Shown: positions 39,162 to 44,573 of the stretch, in pieces | Layout: every line of letters begins with the position of its first letter | How positions within the stretch are numbered: the first letter of the stretch is position 1 | NCBI GenBank assembly: GCA_903885595.1 | Contig: CAISJJ010000028.1 | Span: forward strand, 1-50,257 | Direction: 5' to 3' | From: an uncultured Bacteroidales bacterium | Lineage (GTDB): Bacteria; Bacteroidota; Bacteroidia; Bacteroidales; FEN-979 | Length of the DNA: 50,257 nt | Notes under the pieces: generated by a model | Database searches by the model: none | Told to the model about the DNA's origin: nothing | What the model saw: only the letters and a program-made list of their open reading frames with translations | Program-made: the position numbers and the translations under genes

Positions 39162-39926
39162 ATGAAAGAATCCATATTTTTTATGATCGTTTATGCCTGG
39201 ATTGCCATAGCGATTTTTATATTTCCGGTAGTCATCAGAATCGTGGCGCCCTATGGCCGGCATACAACAAGAAAATGGGGCGCCATGATCGACAACCATG
39301 CAGGCTGGATACTTATGGAACTTCCGGCATTGCTTGTGTTTGCCTGTTTTTACCTCTTTGGCTCAGGTACTCACCCAACTGTTACCTGGGTTTTCTTTAC
39401 ATTATGGATATTTCATTATATTAACCGCACATTGGTGTTTCCTTTCCGGCTCAGAACAAAGGGAAAAAAAATGCCATTAGCCATCGTGTTTATGGCCATC
39501 GGATTTAATTTTGTCAACGGGTTTCTCAATGGATACTATCTTGGATCCATGGCTACCGAGACCGAATACCCTTTATCCTACATGGCTGACCCAAGATTTA
39601 TTGGCGGGATTGTTTTATTTATTTTTGGCATGTTTATCAACTGGCAGTCTGATAATATTCTGATTCACCTGAGAAAGCCGGGAGAAACGGGATATGTAAT
39701 ACCCCAGAAAGGATTTTTCCGGTGGGTTTCATGCCCGAACCATTTTGGTGAAATAGTTGAATGGTCAGGGTTTGCTTTAATGACATGGAGTTCGCCTGCC
39801 CTTGCATTTGCTGTGTGGACCCTGGTAAACCTGATGCCAAGGGCATTACACCATCACAAATGGTATAAAGAAACTTTTTCAGAATATCCCTCCCAGCGGA
39901 AAGCTTTGCTGCCATTCATCCTTTAA
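39162..39926 (+). CDS. Steroid 5-alpha-reductase family membrane protein
   Basis: A 254-residue integral membrane protein, with about six hydrophobic segments starting at MIVYAWIAIAIFIFPVVIRI. Its C-terminal half has the family's NADPH/substrate region: RFIGGIVLFIFGMFINWQSD, YVIPQKGFFRWVSCPNHFGE, EWSGFALMTW, and the end ARALHHHKWYKETFSEYP-like segment (PRALHHHKWYKETFSEYPSQ). These are hallmarks of 3-oxo-5-alpha-steroid 4-dehydrogenases, which reduce a C4-C5 double bond. Bacterial homologues act on bile acids, sterols or unknown lipids. It pairs with an extended SDR 11 nt upstream. The 3' end contains a 24-bp tandem duplication that includes the stop codon. Confidence 0.87.
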   Translation: MKESIFFMIVYAWIAIAIFIFPVVIRIVAPYGRHTTRKWGAMIDNHAGWILMELPALLVFACFYLFGSGTHPTVTWVFFTLWIFHYINRTLVFPFRLRTKGKKMPLAIVFMAIGFNFVNGFLNGYYLGSMATETEYPLSYMADPRFIGGIVLFIFGMFINWQSDNILIHLRKPGETGYVIPQKGFFRWVSCPNHFGEIVEWSGFALMTWSSPALAFAVWTLVNLMPRALHHHKWYKETFSEYPSQRKALLPFIL

Positions 39927-39948
39927 GCTTTGCTGCCATTCATCCTTT
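39901..39948 (+). repeat. 24-bp perfect tandem duplication over a stop codon
   Basis: Bases 39901-39924 and 39925-39948 are identical (start AAGCTTTGCT, end TCATCCTTT). The first copy is the last eight codons of the 5-alpha-reductase-family gene and the junction forms its TAA. The second copy is noncoding and ends in another TAA. Confidence 0.95.
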
Positions 39949-39953
39949 AAGGT

Positions 39954-39999
39954 TATAAAACACCGATGGGAACCGCTTCTGGCCGAAGTGGTTCCCATC
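39954..39999 (-). terminator. Terminator of the unidentified RNA
   Basis: GATGGGAACC pairs with GGTTCCCATC, extended by a five-pair inner stem (one G-T), with a 5-nt loop. It is followed on the minus strand by CGGTGTTTTAT. No T-run follows on the plus strand. Confidence 0.8.
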
Positions 40000-40281
40000 C
40001 CGTTATCCTATTGGCCGTAGCCAACCGGAGCGTTCAAGTTACAGTTATTGTGGTTGATCTACTTTGGGTGGGGTGACCCCTCCCCTTTCGTTCCGGTCCT
40101 TTTCTGAAATTGCTCTTGCGGGCTATTCCCGATTTTGGACCCTGCTCTGAAAACATGCTATAAACTGGTTCAGACCTTGCGGAATGTTCCGCGTTAACGC
40201 GTGGTCGGGAGTGCCTGGTACCTTGCGGATCCTACTTTCGCCTTCCTGTTTTTGAGTCAGACCTTTTATCGCTCACTTGAA
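39954..40281 (-). ncRNA. Unidentified structured RNA, about 330 nt
   Basis: This is the only stretch over 300 nt without a gene. On the minus strand it starts just after a full TTTG-N21-TATATTTG promoter and ends at a strong terminator hairpin, with richer G+C than the AT-rich DNA up to clpS. Near its 5' end CGTTCAAGT (40275-40283) can pair perfectly with ACTTGAACG (40031-40039), closing a domain of about 250 nt. Inside are a GGTCC/GGACC helix, a GGGAGGGG/CCCCACCC hairpin, CGGG-AATAG-CCCG, GCGGAA-CA-TTCCGC, TTGGC-TACG-GCCAA with a UNCG-type loop, and three copies of CCGCAAG. It lacks RNase P core motifs and a tmRNA CCA end. I do not recognise the family. Confidence 0.7.
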
Positions 40282-40284
40282 CGT

Positions 40285-40317
40285 CAAATATACAGCAGCA
40301 AAACAGGTGAAAGCAAA
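40285..40317 (-). promoter_or_regulatory. Promoter of the unidentified RNA
   Basis: Minus strand: TTTG (40317-40314), 21 nt, TATATTTG (40292-40285). Both elements of the Bacteroidota consensus are present and no open reading frame starts just downstream. Confidence 0.75.
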
Positions 40318-40459: not shown

Positions 40460-40732
40460 TTACTCAACAGTTACTGTCAATCCACGCATCGTCATTTCAT
40501 TGCATAAAGGCTTTATTTCAGAAAAGGCTCCTGCTTTAACACTGCATTTCCCTTTAAAATGGGCAATCAAAGCGCACTGTTCAGCCTGCTCTGGTTCATG
40601 ATCGCAAACTTCAACCAAGGACTGGATGACAAAATCAAAAGTGTTCACGTCATCATTAAAAAGAATCAGATCACGAAGGCTCCCTTGTTGATCCTTATCG
40701 ATTGGGGAAGGATTTTCTTTATGCTTTACCAT
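40460..40732 (-). CDS. clpS: ClpS, adaptor for Clp protease
   Basis: Small adaptor that delivers N-degron substrates to a Clp unfoldase, here most likely ClpC. The 90-residue protein has a flexible N-terminus, the binding-pocket motif LILFNDDVNTFDFVIQSL, and LIAHFKGKCSVKAG with the pocket histidine. The C-terminus (MTMRGLTVTVE) matches the family. It has its own promoter, back to back with that of the Nudix gene. The 142 nt between its stop and the RNA gene are AT-rich, with no feature seen. Confidence 0.94.
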   Translation of the reverse strand: MVKHKENPSPIDKDQQGSLRDLILFNDDVNTFDFVIQSLVEVCDHEPEQAEQCALIAHFKGKCSVKAGAFSEIKPLCNEMTMRGLTVTVE

Positions 40733-41494: not shown

Positions 41495-42613
41495 TTACCT
41501 GTCACTGATTTTCGTAAAGCAAAATGTCCCGGGAATTCTGCCCGCAATATATTGCCTGATGAGCGTACCATTAGCATTATATTGATAGGCTGTTCCATTC
41601 TGCACATAATCTTTGGCATCACTGACAAAAATATTTCCAGTAACAGGATGTATTTCAAGCCCATAAAAGCGGCGTCCCTCGGAGGGAATGAGGGGCTGAC
41701 CAGGCGGTCCGGCGGCGGAAATGGGCATTTGAAACACCCCATCTTTTAAAAAATATAAGGTGTCTTTTGCTTGATTTATACACAATCGACTGGGGACCTG
41801 TTTTGTATCAGAGAAGGTGAAAACTTTTTCAATCTTAAACGAAATGGGATCGATTCGCAAAAGTGAAGCGGCTTCAAAATAATCATATCCTCCAGAGCAG
41901 AGAATCCAAACTTTTTTTTCTTTATCGATCACAATACCAATCGGTTCTTTTCCTGTGGCAAGGCTATCAACAATCGAATCAGTCTGTATGTCGATTTTTA
42001 AAATCTGAGCTTTTCTTTGAAAACTCGGTTTACTGAAATCTCCAATAGAAGCAACAAGCATATGTTTTTCATACAGGACCAGGTTCTCAGTCCAGGTTGA
42101 GGTTTTTATGCTGCCTGAAACTGAATTGTTCTGAAGATCGATTACAGAAATATTATTCTGCAGGTTGGTAACATAGGCTTTATTGGAATCGATAACCTCC
42201 AGGTAGCGCGGGTAAAAAAGCCCTTGAATTGATTTTACTGATTTAAAATCTTTTACCGAGACAACTTCAATATAGTTTGAGTTATTTACAACAATATAAC
42301 CCAAATTCCCGATGATTTTCATTGACTGTGCGACATCACCCAAACCTCTGCCATTTGATTTCCTGAAAACACTCTGAACTGCCTTGTTAGTTTTATTATC
42401 CAGGTAGGTTACAGAGGCATTTCCCCAATTGTAATTGCCCTCATTAATTACGAAAATTCCATCGTTATAACCTGCAGTGATCCCAGTAGTATCGGAATCT
42501 TCTATTGTTTTTTCGCGAACCGGATCTTTGGAGCATGATGTGCTGCAAAAAATAAAAACAAGACTGGAATATAGAAATACGATCCAATAAATGGGATAAC
42601 GGTTTTTATTCAC
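41495..42613 (-). CDS. DUF5074/YncE-like beta-propeller lipoprotein
   Basis: A 372-residue lipoprotein (signal with lipidated Cys27 in FCSTSCSKDP; the charged residues right after the cysteine resemble surface-export signals of Bacteroidota lipoproteins). The body has repeating propeller blades: NDGIFVINEGNYNWGNASVT, GYIVVNNSNYIEVVSVKDFK, KAYVTNLQNNISVIDLQNNS, and KVWILCSGG. Proteins of this type flank BtuB-like receptors, and BtuG is a cobalamin-binding propeller on the Bacteroides surface. Last gene of a three-gene unit with a TonB receptor 22 nt upstream. Binding of a nutrient on the cell surface is likely; vitamin B12 is a guess by analogy. Confidence 0.82.
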   Translation of the reverse strand: MNKNRYPIYWIVFLYSSLVFIFCSTSCSKDPVREKTIEDSDTTGITAGYNDGIFVINEGNYNWGNASVTYLDNKTNKAVQSVFRKSNGRGLGDVAQSMKIIGNLGYIVVNNSNYIEVVSVKDFKSVKSIQGLFYPRYLEVIDSNKAYVTNLQNNISVIDLQNNSVSGSIKTSTWTENLVLYEKHMLVASIGDFSKPSFQRKAQILKIDIQTDSIVDSLATGKEPIGIVIDKEKKVWILCSGGYDYFEAASLLRIDPISFKIEKVFTFSDTKQVPSRLCINQAKDTLYFLKDGVFQMPISAAGPPGQPLIPSEGRRFYGLEIHPVTGNIFVSDAKDYVQNGTAYQYNANGTLIRQYIAGRIPGTFCFTKISDR

Positions 42614-42635
42614 GTCAGGTGATTTATTATGTATT

Positions 42636-44573
42636 CTATTGATTTCGCCCGCCAGAGAGTGAAAGTTTCAGCGTTAGTGCATAGTTTATTCCGGGCATCG
42701 GTCGGCTTGCTATAGATTGGTAATCAAGATTAAACAGATTATTAATTTCAAACTGTAAAGATATAATAAAATTTCTCAAACCGAGGTTTTTACCAAAAAT
42801 AATAGATGACAAACTATAAGCAGGCATATAGGAAAGGTTGTCCTTCCCCGTGTATCTGCTGCTAACGAAAGAAAAGTTATAGATGATATAAAATTTCCAG
42901 CGCTCCAGTGAAATAGTAGAATTGAAATTATGAACAGGAATATAAATCAACTGTTTCCCTATTTTGTTATCATTTACAATGTCGGTTTTTTCATAGGTTG
43001 AGCGACAGTAATTATAGTTGTTATCAAAGCTCAGGTTGAAGTGCATGAGTTCACATCTGACATTGAAACCCACTTCAAGTCCCCTTGCCAGCACTTCCCC
43101 GACATTCTCAGGTTTCCATAGGCTGCTGCCCTCCACAGGCTGCCATGTAATCATTTCGTAAATCCAGGAGTAGTACCCTGTGAGGTTGGCTTCGATAAAA
43201 AGCCGGTTAGTATTTGTGGTAAAATTGAAGGTAGATCCAAGTTCCGATGTATAGTTTACCTCGGGCTTCAGATCAGGATTTCCTGAAAGTTCCCAGAACA
43301 GATCATTCAATGTAGGATACCTGTAATTTCTGGCAAGATTAGCTGAAAAGGCAAGGTTAATATTGTTGAATGGACGATATTCAGCTCCTATGGCCGGTAC
43401 AAACGGAATAAATTTCCCATCAATCAGATCCTCCCTGAGTACCAATGAAGTGTTGATTTTTTTTCCGATACTGTAATTCATTTCAAGGAAAAAACTAGCA
43501 GTACGCCTGGTTTTTAATTCGTTGTATGAGTCTGAATAGACCCAATCGCCTGTATAATCCATCCCGGGCTTAATCGTTAAATTTTTTATCCCGTTATATG
43601 AAAACCTGATCCTGTTAATCCAGGAATAGTATGTATGGGTAACATTGAGGAGGGAATCCCGGATGTAGTTCATATACTGGGAAACAAGCGCTGACCTGAT
43701 AAGCAGGTTATATTTTTTTTCAATGAACTTATATTCAAGAATAGCTCTGAGCGCATTATCCTGCTGGGATTCCACGTTTTTAATATCAATTTGGGTCGAG
43801 GTAGCAGGAAGTTTCCGTTTGTTGTTATTATACCAGAATTTGACAGAAAACAGGTGTCGGTCATTCAGTTTCAAAAAAAACTCCTGAGCAACATCATAGA
43901 ACCTGTTTGAGGCATTCTTTTGGTAACTGACCTCCCCAATATCATTTGTATATGAAAAATCATTCAGTGCAGAAGCAAAACTAAATTTTGTATGCGATTG
44001 AAATGATTTAGTACCTGCTGTGGCTTTAGCATTGGTAGTATAACTATTAAAACTGGCAAATGTTTGTGCGAGGCTGACGCTATAACGGTTATTCCAGTCC
44101 GGATTTGTTACCAGATCAATAACTCCTCCGAAAGCGCCACTGGTTCGCGAGATACCTGCAGCGCCATATAAAATTTCCAGTCCATCGAACTGGGATATTG
44201 GTATTTGAGAAAAATCAACCTGGCCAAGCATTGGTGAATTGAGGTTGATTCCATTCCATTCAACCTGGGTGTGCTGTGCAGTCGTTCCCCTGAAAGACGA
44301 GGTGGCCAGCGTATTATTGCCATAAGATTTTATAAATATGGTTGAGTGTTGTGATAGGATTGTTGATAAATTGGCACTTAATTGTGGCACCAGGATGGCT
44401 GAATCCAATTTTGATCTTTTAAAACCTTTATTATCGAGGACGAAACTTGATTTGATTTCGAATTCAGGCAAATGGAGTGTATCTCCCAAATCTTGGGCAA
44501 TGATCTTCAGGGTGAGGTAAGGTGACCCAAGGAAAAGAATGCAGAAAAGGAGGTATTTACTGTTTTTTATCAA
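42636..44573 (-). CDS. TonB-dependent outer membrane receptor (BtuB-like)
   Basis: A 645-residue outer membrane transporter. A signal peptide (LLFCILFLGSPYLTLKIIAQ) precedes a plug domain (about 30-160) with LPEFEIKSSF, STIFIKSYGNNTLATSSFRG, and LEILYGAAGISRTSGAFGGV. A 22-stranded beta barrel with alternating aromatic strands follows. It is of BtuB/FepA size and lacks the N-terminal carboxypeptidase-like domain of SusC proteins. The barrel ends LTLKLSLSGGRNQ, without a terminal Phe. The propeller lipoprotein and T9SS-tailed surface protein flank it 22 nt on each side, which fits a BtuB-BtuG-type uptake unit. Substrate not shown by sequence. Confidence 0.88.
   Translation of the reverse strand: MIKNSKYLLFCILFLGSPYLTLKIIAQDLGDTLHLPEFEIKSSFVLDNKGFKRSKLDSAILVPQLSANLSTILSQHSTIFIKSYGNNTLATSSFRGTTAQHTQVEWNGINLNSPMLGQVDFSQIPISQFDGLEILYGAAGISRTSGAFGGVIDLVTNPDWNNRYSVSLAQTFASFNSYTTNAKATAGTKSFQSHTKFSFASALNDFSYTNDIGEVSYQKNASNRFYDVAQEFFLKLNDRHLFSVKFWYNNNKRKLPATSTQIDIKNVESQQDNALRAILEYKFIEKKYNLLIRSALVSQYMNYIRDSLLNVTHTYYSWINRIRFSYNGIKNLTIKPGMDYTGDWVYSDSYNELKTRRTASFFLEMNYSIGKKINTSLVLREDLIDGKFIPFVPAIGAEYRPFNNINLAFSANLARNYRYPTLNDLFWELSGNPDLKPEVNYTSELGSTFNFTTNTNRLFIEANLTGYYSWIYEMITWQPVEGSSLWKPENVGEVLARGLEVGFNVRCELMHFNLSFDNNYNYCRSTYEKTDIVNDNKIGKQLIYIPVHNFNSTISLERWKFYIIYNFSFVSSRYTGKDNLSYMPAYSLSSIIFGKNLGLRNFIISLQFEINNLFNLDYQSIASRPMPGINYALTLKLSLSGGRNQ

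Follow-up and report, generated by a model that had tools for sequence, protein, structure and literature searches.

Background

Large structured RNAs of open function are already known in bacteria as a broad kind. In the available part of PMC12286853, OLE, ROOL and GOLLD are described as large and ornate RNAs whose function is open, all three have Rfam profiles, GOLLD, ROOL and OLE form homo-oligomers via A-minor contacts and kissing loops, and ROOL is known from phages and prophages. A further example is the raiA-motif RNA (ModT) of Bacillota and Actinomycetota, which the available part of PMC11706538 describes as abundant, trans-acting and highly structured, with wide taxonomic conservation, variable neighbours and a deletion that is tolerated. 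From Bacteroidetes, the motifs Bacteroidales-1, Bacteroides-1, Flavo-1 and 6S-flavo were put forward as noncoding candidates by Weinberg et al. 2010 (PMC2864571, available part), and the candidates in the available part of PMC8040213 are 27 to 219 nt long.

Here we describe a minus-strand unit beside clpS in a 50,257-nt stretch of DNA from an uncultured Bacteroidales bacterium (the whole stretch analysed is called the window). Judged from its sequence and that of its relatives, the unit looks like a real structured RNA that is separately transcribed. As far as the available descriptions go, it resembles raiA/ModT in being highly structured, in occurring across wide taxa with varying neighbours, in the tolerance of its loss and in its probable action in trans. 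It differs in belonging to another phylum, in having an AU-rich core loop made of two strands, in the lack of an Rfam match, in a far more variable size (134-647 nt) and in the tandem modules found in one genus. The best reading is that the new RNA is comparable to raiA/ModT and not homologous to it. Like OLE, ROOL and GOLLD as described in the same partial sources, it is large and ornate and has many GNRA-type tips; unlike them, it is absent from the phage records and viral contigs searched and has reduced natural forms.

Results

A predicted separate transcription unit beside clpS

The features of the locus are collected in Table 1. The 533-nt gap between the end of the DUF1295-like gene and clpS had been predicted to hold no credible gene, and inspection of the open reading frames bore this out. 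The ends of the RNA, at about 40284 and 39957, were placed from the promoter and the terminator. The extent given in the original prediction, 39954 to 40281, had the length of about 330 nt right, but the conserved RNA runs slightly beyond 40281.

A two-element promoter had also been proposed. On the minus strand, TTTG (40317-40314) is followed by TATATTTG (40292-40285) with 21 nt between TTG and TATATTTG, an arrangement that we take to be the Bacteroidota promoter type. It was assessed in 61 loci, consisting of the window and 60 loci retrieved by the covariance model R1, from which the promoter is absent. The 5' core motif was matched in 50 of these, and TAnnTTTG lies 3-9 nt upstream of the motif in 46 of the 50, with TTG as well in 44; the count omits the 11 loci without the motif. 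The chance of the promoter arrangement is 0.35% per window (104/29830). At the other end, a 15-nt hairpin that is 93% complementary (39999-39965) is followed by GUGUUUU. The terminator had been predicted to be strong; its T run counts only four in the window and at least five in several relatives. Comparison across the loci marks this as a standalone unit with a putative promoter box in register and a predicted intrinsic terminator, and the RNA is probably transcribed.

Between the two ends, the 9-bp pairing that had been predicted for P1 is exact in the window, but only the inner five to six pairs are common to relatives, and the outer pairs overlap the base of the next hairpin, P10. The three CCGCAAG copies were found on the minus strand as claimed, at 40228-40222, 40182-40176 and 40121-40115, within the exchangeable domain.

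Two further observations were made in the window. An exact 24-nt tandem duplication at 39901-39948 spans the last part of the DUF1295-like gene together with its stop codon. On the minus strand at 41495-44573, a BtuB-like TonB-dependent receptor (below family cut-offs) adjoins a beta-propeller-like gene; no cobalamin riboswitch reached the Rfam threshold anywhere in the window.

Table 1. Features of the RNA locus in the window. A2 is the 19-sequence alignment and R1 the covariance model built from it.
Feature	Position	Strand	Basis
Steroid-dehydrogenase/DUF1295-like gene	39162-39926	+	Pfam Steroid_dh and DUF1295
clpS	40460-40732	-	Pfam ClpS, score above family cut-off
Promoter, presumed Bacteroidota type	40285-40317	-	Sequence; in-register box in relatives
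Whole predicted structured RNA, ~328 nt	39957-40284	-	R1 match 39957-40285 (window is a training member); A2 covariation
P1, 5' strand CGUUCAAGU	40275-40283	-	Exact 9-bp pairing; helix 1 of A2 structure; 81 cores
Conserved internal loop, 5' strand GAGCGAUAAAA	40264-40274	-	GAUAAA invariant in A2; core motif in 50/61 loci
P2, 5' strand	40261-40263	-	A2 pairs 23:248 and 25:246: two-sided changes, 100% paired
Exchangeable multibranched domain, several GNRA-type hairpins	40055-40260	-	A2 helices 3-14, most covarying
P2, 3' strand	40052-40054	-	A2 covariation analysis
Conserved internal loop, 3' strand ACAAUAACUGUA	40040-40051	-	AAUAAC invariant in 19 A2 sequences
P1, 3' strand ACUUGAACG	40031-40039	-	Exact pairing with 40275-40283; covariation in A2 and 81 cores
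Hairpin P10, tip GGCUACGGCC	40001-40032	-	A2 helix 15; 52-sequence alignment
Terminator hairpin (39999-39965) and U run (39960-39957)	39957-39999	-	52-sequence alignment: two-sided changes in 14/14 pairs

Covariation supports a structured, noncoding RNA

The fold energy of the strand is -111.7 kcal/mol, compared with -90.2 +/- 5.1 kcal/mol for 100 dinucleotide shuffles (z = -4.2), none of which folded as low. Alignment A2 comprised the window and 18 full-length relatives (19 sequences, 85 pairs) and was used to build R1. It leaves out L006 (cut), L008 (which nearly duplicates L009), the partial or divergent loci L053 and L064, and the reduced forms. Two-sided changes occurred in 51 of the 85 pairs against 33.7 in shuffled alignments, 87.0% of cells pair against a shuffled mean of 77.4%, and the covariation score was 0.354 against 0.193 +/- 0.008; for each of the three measures, 0 of 500 shuffles reached the observed value. 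Sliding one strand by 1-3 columns left only 20-30 pairs with two-sided changes, a comparison that favours the A2 structure, since it was derived from the alignment on which it is counted. The covariation that had been proposed as a check on the RNA was thus found.

Further support came from 81 diverse cores of many families, chosen by motifs of both loop strands, a choice that does not fix the covarying positions. When these were aligned without reference to structure, the top 15 covarying column pairs were 72-100% complementary and fell in P1, P10 or the terminator, with P2 at ranks 17 and 27. At the P1 pair 9:65, the cores carry AU 65 times, GC 14 times, and GU and AC once each. In a 52-sequence alignment of the 3' core, 20 of 20 pairs showed two-sided changes against 15.2 in shuffled alignments (0 of 500 as high), and in the tip of P10 such changes were seen in 6/6 pairs.

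A protein gene was ruled out by the gap lengths and the short open reading frames. The internal gaps between aligned pairs were not multiples of three in 1134 of 1197 cases (63 were), and the longest sense-strand ATG open reading frames of the 19 sequences span 8-67 aa. Protein-like change, which would have told against the original prediction, was looked for in this way and none was seen. Mutual information over the 19 sequences came mainly from pairs that lie outside the structure and are of mixed complementarity, and therefore we claim no pseudoknot or tertiary pair.

Comparison with known RNA families

At gathering score, Rfam 15 gave no match in the window and none on the RNA in 36 related loci; 20 of these had no matches at all, and the remaining 16 had one, a tRNA far from the RNA in L245. 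A permissive scan of the window region yielded three matches, all of them weak (E 0.56-4.1) and to unrelated families, and the same kind of scan of L250 yielded none up to E 5. The raiA model, which we take to be part of the Rfam library, had no match in the whole-Rfam scan of the window and the 36 loci. The models for OLE, ROOL and GOLLD likewise had none in these sequences, and none of the Weinberg motifs (RF01693, RF01694, RF01705 and RF01685) reached the gathering score on the new RNA in the window or the 36 loci.

Housekeeping RNAs were considered in turn. RNase P RNA, tmRNA and SRP RNA are likewise standalone RNAs of about 100-400 nt, and each sits elsewhere in this genome, in agreement with the original exclusion of all three. 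The single match to RNase P RNA (RF00010) is at G000:C502. tmRNA (RF00023) matches above the cut-off at G000:C305 and weakly at C101, and ARAGORN found none in the window. The bacterial small SRP RNA (RF00169) matches at G000:C321 and C227 with similar scores, which reflect either two genes or a duplicated assembly. A 6S-Flavo (RF01685) search of this genome gave no match, but none was obtained in its 14 control genomes either. 6S RNA is a long hairpin with a central promoter-like bubble, whereas the consensus structure here is a multibranched domain closed by P1 and P2, and the shape of 6S RNA was not found.

In the papers searched, no published RNA fits. The RNA family is apparently new as far as Rfam 15 and that literature go. 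Its defining features, namely P1, the GAUAAAAG/AAUAAC loop, P2, P10 and the terminator hairpin, are all present in the window. What had been claimed, a noncoding and structured RNA some 330 nt long that Rfam does not recognise, is supported by the fold, the covariation and the empty Rfam scan, and against Rfam 15 and the papers searched the novelty claim stands.

A conserved core loop and an exchangeable domain

In most copies, P1 and P2 enclose a strongly conserved loop, GAGNGAUAAAA facing ANAAUAACNGUA. It is an internal loop with GAUAAAAG facing AAUAACNGUA between two covarying helices. Of the 61 loci, 53 have AATAAC within their last 150 nt, compared with 78 of 1290 upstream 150-nt stretches; seven of the remaining loci differ from it by a single letter, and the last, L146, has nothing similar. 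GATAAA, present in 58 of the 61 loci, is uninformative by itself, as 175 of 393 upstream stretches of equal length have it too. The constancy of the loop strands in the 77 measured copies, the 81 cores and the 52 sequences is given by construction, as these were selected by motif. The pairs drawn inside the loop are invariant in A2, and covariation therefore cannot test how the loop folds.

The copies share their ends, made up of P1, the loop, P2, P10 and the terminator hairpin, and the domain beyond P2 varies in size and structure between lineages. Measured lengths range from 218 to 647 nt (n = 77, from 117 motif matches that gave 97 distinct 5' ends, 84 of them with a 3' core and 77 with a length; 81 of these served as the cores above and 52 went into the 3'-core alignment). 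Among the loci of genus g8 (L281-L286 and L288), five species have reduced forms of 134 nt. These retain the promoter, P1, GAUAAAAGG, the AAUAAC strand (AAUUAC in G815), P10 and the terminator, and beyond P2 they have just a short plain hairpin, in whose stem the two strands change together. Two other species of the genus, G025 and G032, have kept the promoter and terminator with a decayed loop motif.

Genus g226 has gone in the other direction, with one to four tandem modules matched in 16 of the 21 loci inspected and no matched module in the other five (L263, L264, L265, L269 and L277). The module reads GYRY-RAAGG-hairpin-GARA-hairpin-AGAA-RYRY, with a spacing of 102-112 nt where both neighbours were matched. 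Its end stems are complementary in 45 of 45 cases, with ten combinations; the pattern alone would yield complementary ends about four times in ten at random, and modules from related species cannot be counted as independent. An alignment of this genus took in 15 of the 21 loci, with L279 and L280, which began at a wrong upstream match, trimmed; no figure rests on it.

Distribution, copy number and loss

Conservation in relatives, which had been proposed as a check, was confirmed by blastn: the RNA was found in 17 of 61 genomes, its own included, all of the same family. R1 extended this to 30 of 43 genomes of the family and 10 of 19 of the genus; one further congener, G005, was found by blastn only, its RNA being cut by the contig end. 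Five of the 19 congeners (G002, G004, G012, G016 and G018) have the gap between clpS and the DUF1295-like gene without the RNA, and no match elsewhere in the genome. On a tree of ClpS and Nudix from 33 genomes, in which several nodes are weak, presence and absence require four changes, compared with a mean of 5.6 and a minimum of three after shuffling. On the strength of this tree, the RNA looks ancestral in the family and appears to have been lost more than once. The original suggestion of a housekeeping RNA of the lineage therefore fits the age of the RNA but not its absence from the five congeners.

Across the order, R1 matched 78 of 393 genomes in 31 families and 45 genera, and R2, a model of the 3' core, matched 90 of 393 in 34 families. 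The window, a training member of both models, reaches 266 bits with R1 and 82 with R2. Across the phylum, R2 matched five of 395 genomes: the genome itself, three of genus g226 in another order (perhaps a Cytophagales genus) and a false one, G562, where the match lies on a tRNA-Ser. The R2 matches that were not inspected (most of the 90 of 393, and 34 of 55 genomes in g226) may therefore include false ones as well. Within g226, 55 of 72 genomes match R2, and 41 of the 50 high-quality ones do so, among them two single-contig assemblies (G847 and G855).

A DNA search for an exact pattern spanning promoter and 5' core, run on one genome each of 84,980 species, retrieved 77 stretches, of which 74 are labelled as Bacteroidota groups or Chlorobiota and the other three as Alteromonas, Listeria and 'Alphaproteobacteria'. 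R1 matched 72 of the 77 at E <= 0.1, a figure to be read knowing that the pattern is part of the model and that the short edge matches L198, L175, L247 and L191 carry little weight. R1 found no match in L185, L212 and L240, where the pattern is near the end of the stretch, or in L187 (Alteromonas) and L230 (Listeria), and the last two are taken as chance. The stretch labelled Alphaproteobacteria, L220 (SACF01000013.1; INTA.CYC.164), carries the RNA and is probably a mislabelled Bacteroidales genome. The possibility of a phage or plasmid element was rejected: an exact pattern was found in 0 viral contigs, the RNA in 0 phage records, and the L250 form, the only one searched there, in 0 plasmids.

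Most genomes have one copy, and some have tandem or second copies. Two copies about 0.4 to 1.5 kb apart were seen in G074:C55, G191:C1, G108:C28, G302:C1 and G868:C83. Taken together, the matches place the RNA in a large family of predicted standalone structured RNAs of Bacteroidota, which spans many uncultured Bacteroidales and one genus of another order of the phylum.

Genomic neighbourhood

Both clpS and the DUF1295-like gene are present around 15 of the 17 blastn matches (one match is cut by the contig), and in G022, of the same family, the RNA is 1.5 kb from clpS. Over the 61 loci, clpS lies within about 4 kb in only two, the window and L151, and a functional link with clpS is not supported. 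The original view that the position beside clpS may be chance agrees with this count but less well with G041:C6 and G043:C34, one genome each of families f6 and f8, in which a copy found with R2 follows clpS on the same strand, about 3-5 kb downstream. Given these copies, the siting may go back to an old neighbourhood that the families share, and need not be chance alone.

The next downstream open reading frame of at least 100 aa is codirectional with the RNA in 30 of the 61 loci, convergent in 28 and absent in three, as judged from crude calls; in the window it is convergent. This orientation rules out a cis-acting leader or riboswitch, and since the downstream genes point either way, the RNA would act in trans. 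Neighbours differ between families and also within g226, whose 21 loci have several neighbourhoods. A DnaG primase is near the RNA in 14 loci of seven families (convergent in 13) and RelA/SpoT in seven loci of six families, one representative of each having been named by Pfam. Both were rejected as partner genes, as they look like shared ancestry of place, and no partner gene was linked to the RNA among the repeated neighbours.

Discussion

The reading that we prefer, and to which we give about an even chance, is that of a trans-acting ribonucleoprotein scaffold in the manner of ModT. The RNA would be transcribed and, as a component of a ribonucleoprotein, act in trans. A conserved partner, probably a protein, would bind the loop that P1 and P2 frame, and the exchangeable domain, tandemly repeated in one genus, would serve as a scaffold on which size, valency or stability depends. 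The RNA may then be a stable, dispensable regulator or scaffold, as raiA/ModT is in Bacillota, without seed pairing to mRNA. Conservation runs over the whole length and is not concentrated in a seed, and simple base pairing is therefore unlikely; the available part of PMC11706538 argues likewise against seed pairing from the whole-length conservation of ModT. The decay of the loop in G025 and G032 and the absence of the RNA from at least five congeners make a partner that all species need unlikely. A more specific idea, which we offer tentatively, is that of a new class of large bacterial RNA, in which the shared two-helix core and its conserved loop carry interchangeable cargo domains, from a hairpin to four tandem three-way-junction modules, and so form either a multivalent scaffold or an RNA-only pseudo-symmetric particle specific to Bacteroidota.

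The main rival is an RNA-only assembly, in which GNRA loops and junctions would hold together homo-oligomers (cages, rings or dimers) such as those that GOLLD, ROOL and OLE are known to form (PMC12286853, available part). The comparable size of the 77 measured copies, the many GNRA-type tips and the regularly spaced modules of g226 suit this explanation, but the 134-nt forms persist without the domain, and the absence from viral contigs and phage records sets the RNA apart from ROOL. Covariation outside the nested structure was not convincing either (19 sequences give weak power, and a few such pairs were 84% complementary), and we regard this assembly as rather unlikely. A conserved DNA element or decayed gene with no expressed RNA can scarcely account for the compensatory changes over 19 and 52 sequences, the promoter box in register, the terminator or the gaps that are not in threes, and we give it next to no credence. 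A regulator that binds RNA polymerase or ribosomes directly, as a substitute for 6S RNA or as a ribosome-associated RNA, would fit a unit with promoter and terminator that is usually present once per genome, with DnaG or RelA/SpoT nearby in several families. The empty 6S-Flavo search adds little in its favour given the equally empty controls, while several close species do without the RNA and its multibranched shape differs from that of 6S RNA; such a regulator seems improbable.

A trans-acting ribozyme, or another trans-acting RNA whose conserved loop forms an active or ligand-binding centre, could explain why an A-rich internal loop is framed by covarying helices and is kept in the five species where the rest is lost. 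However, no Rfam ribozyme or riboswitch model matches, and downstream of the RNA there is no constant gene such as a ligand sensor would control, which leaves little probability for this explanation. Base pairing, with a structure that only protects the RNA, would suit a trans-acting, patchily distributed single unit with an intrinsic terminator, as many small RNAs are. The seeds of pairing RNAs usually change fast, however, and here the same conserved stretches recur across many families, so we consider a base-pairing small RNA very unlikely. Fast seed change is also argued in the available part of PMC11706538.

Large and strongly conserved structured RNAs are rare in bacteria, and several have proved unusual in structure or function. 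The RNA described here is absent from Rfam 15 and occurs in at least two orders of a phylum that is common in aquatic, sediment and gut habitats. Among close relatives it is long, modular, reduced or lost, and this variety amounts to a set of natural experiments. With the RNA present in 41 of 50 high-quality g226 genomes, a tractable host may exist for direct tests of function. An RNA-only assembly, if true, would be the more surprising outcome than a ribonucleoprotein.
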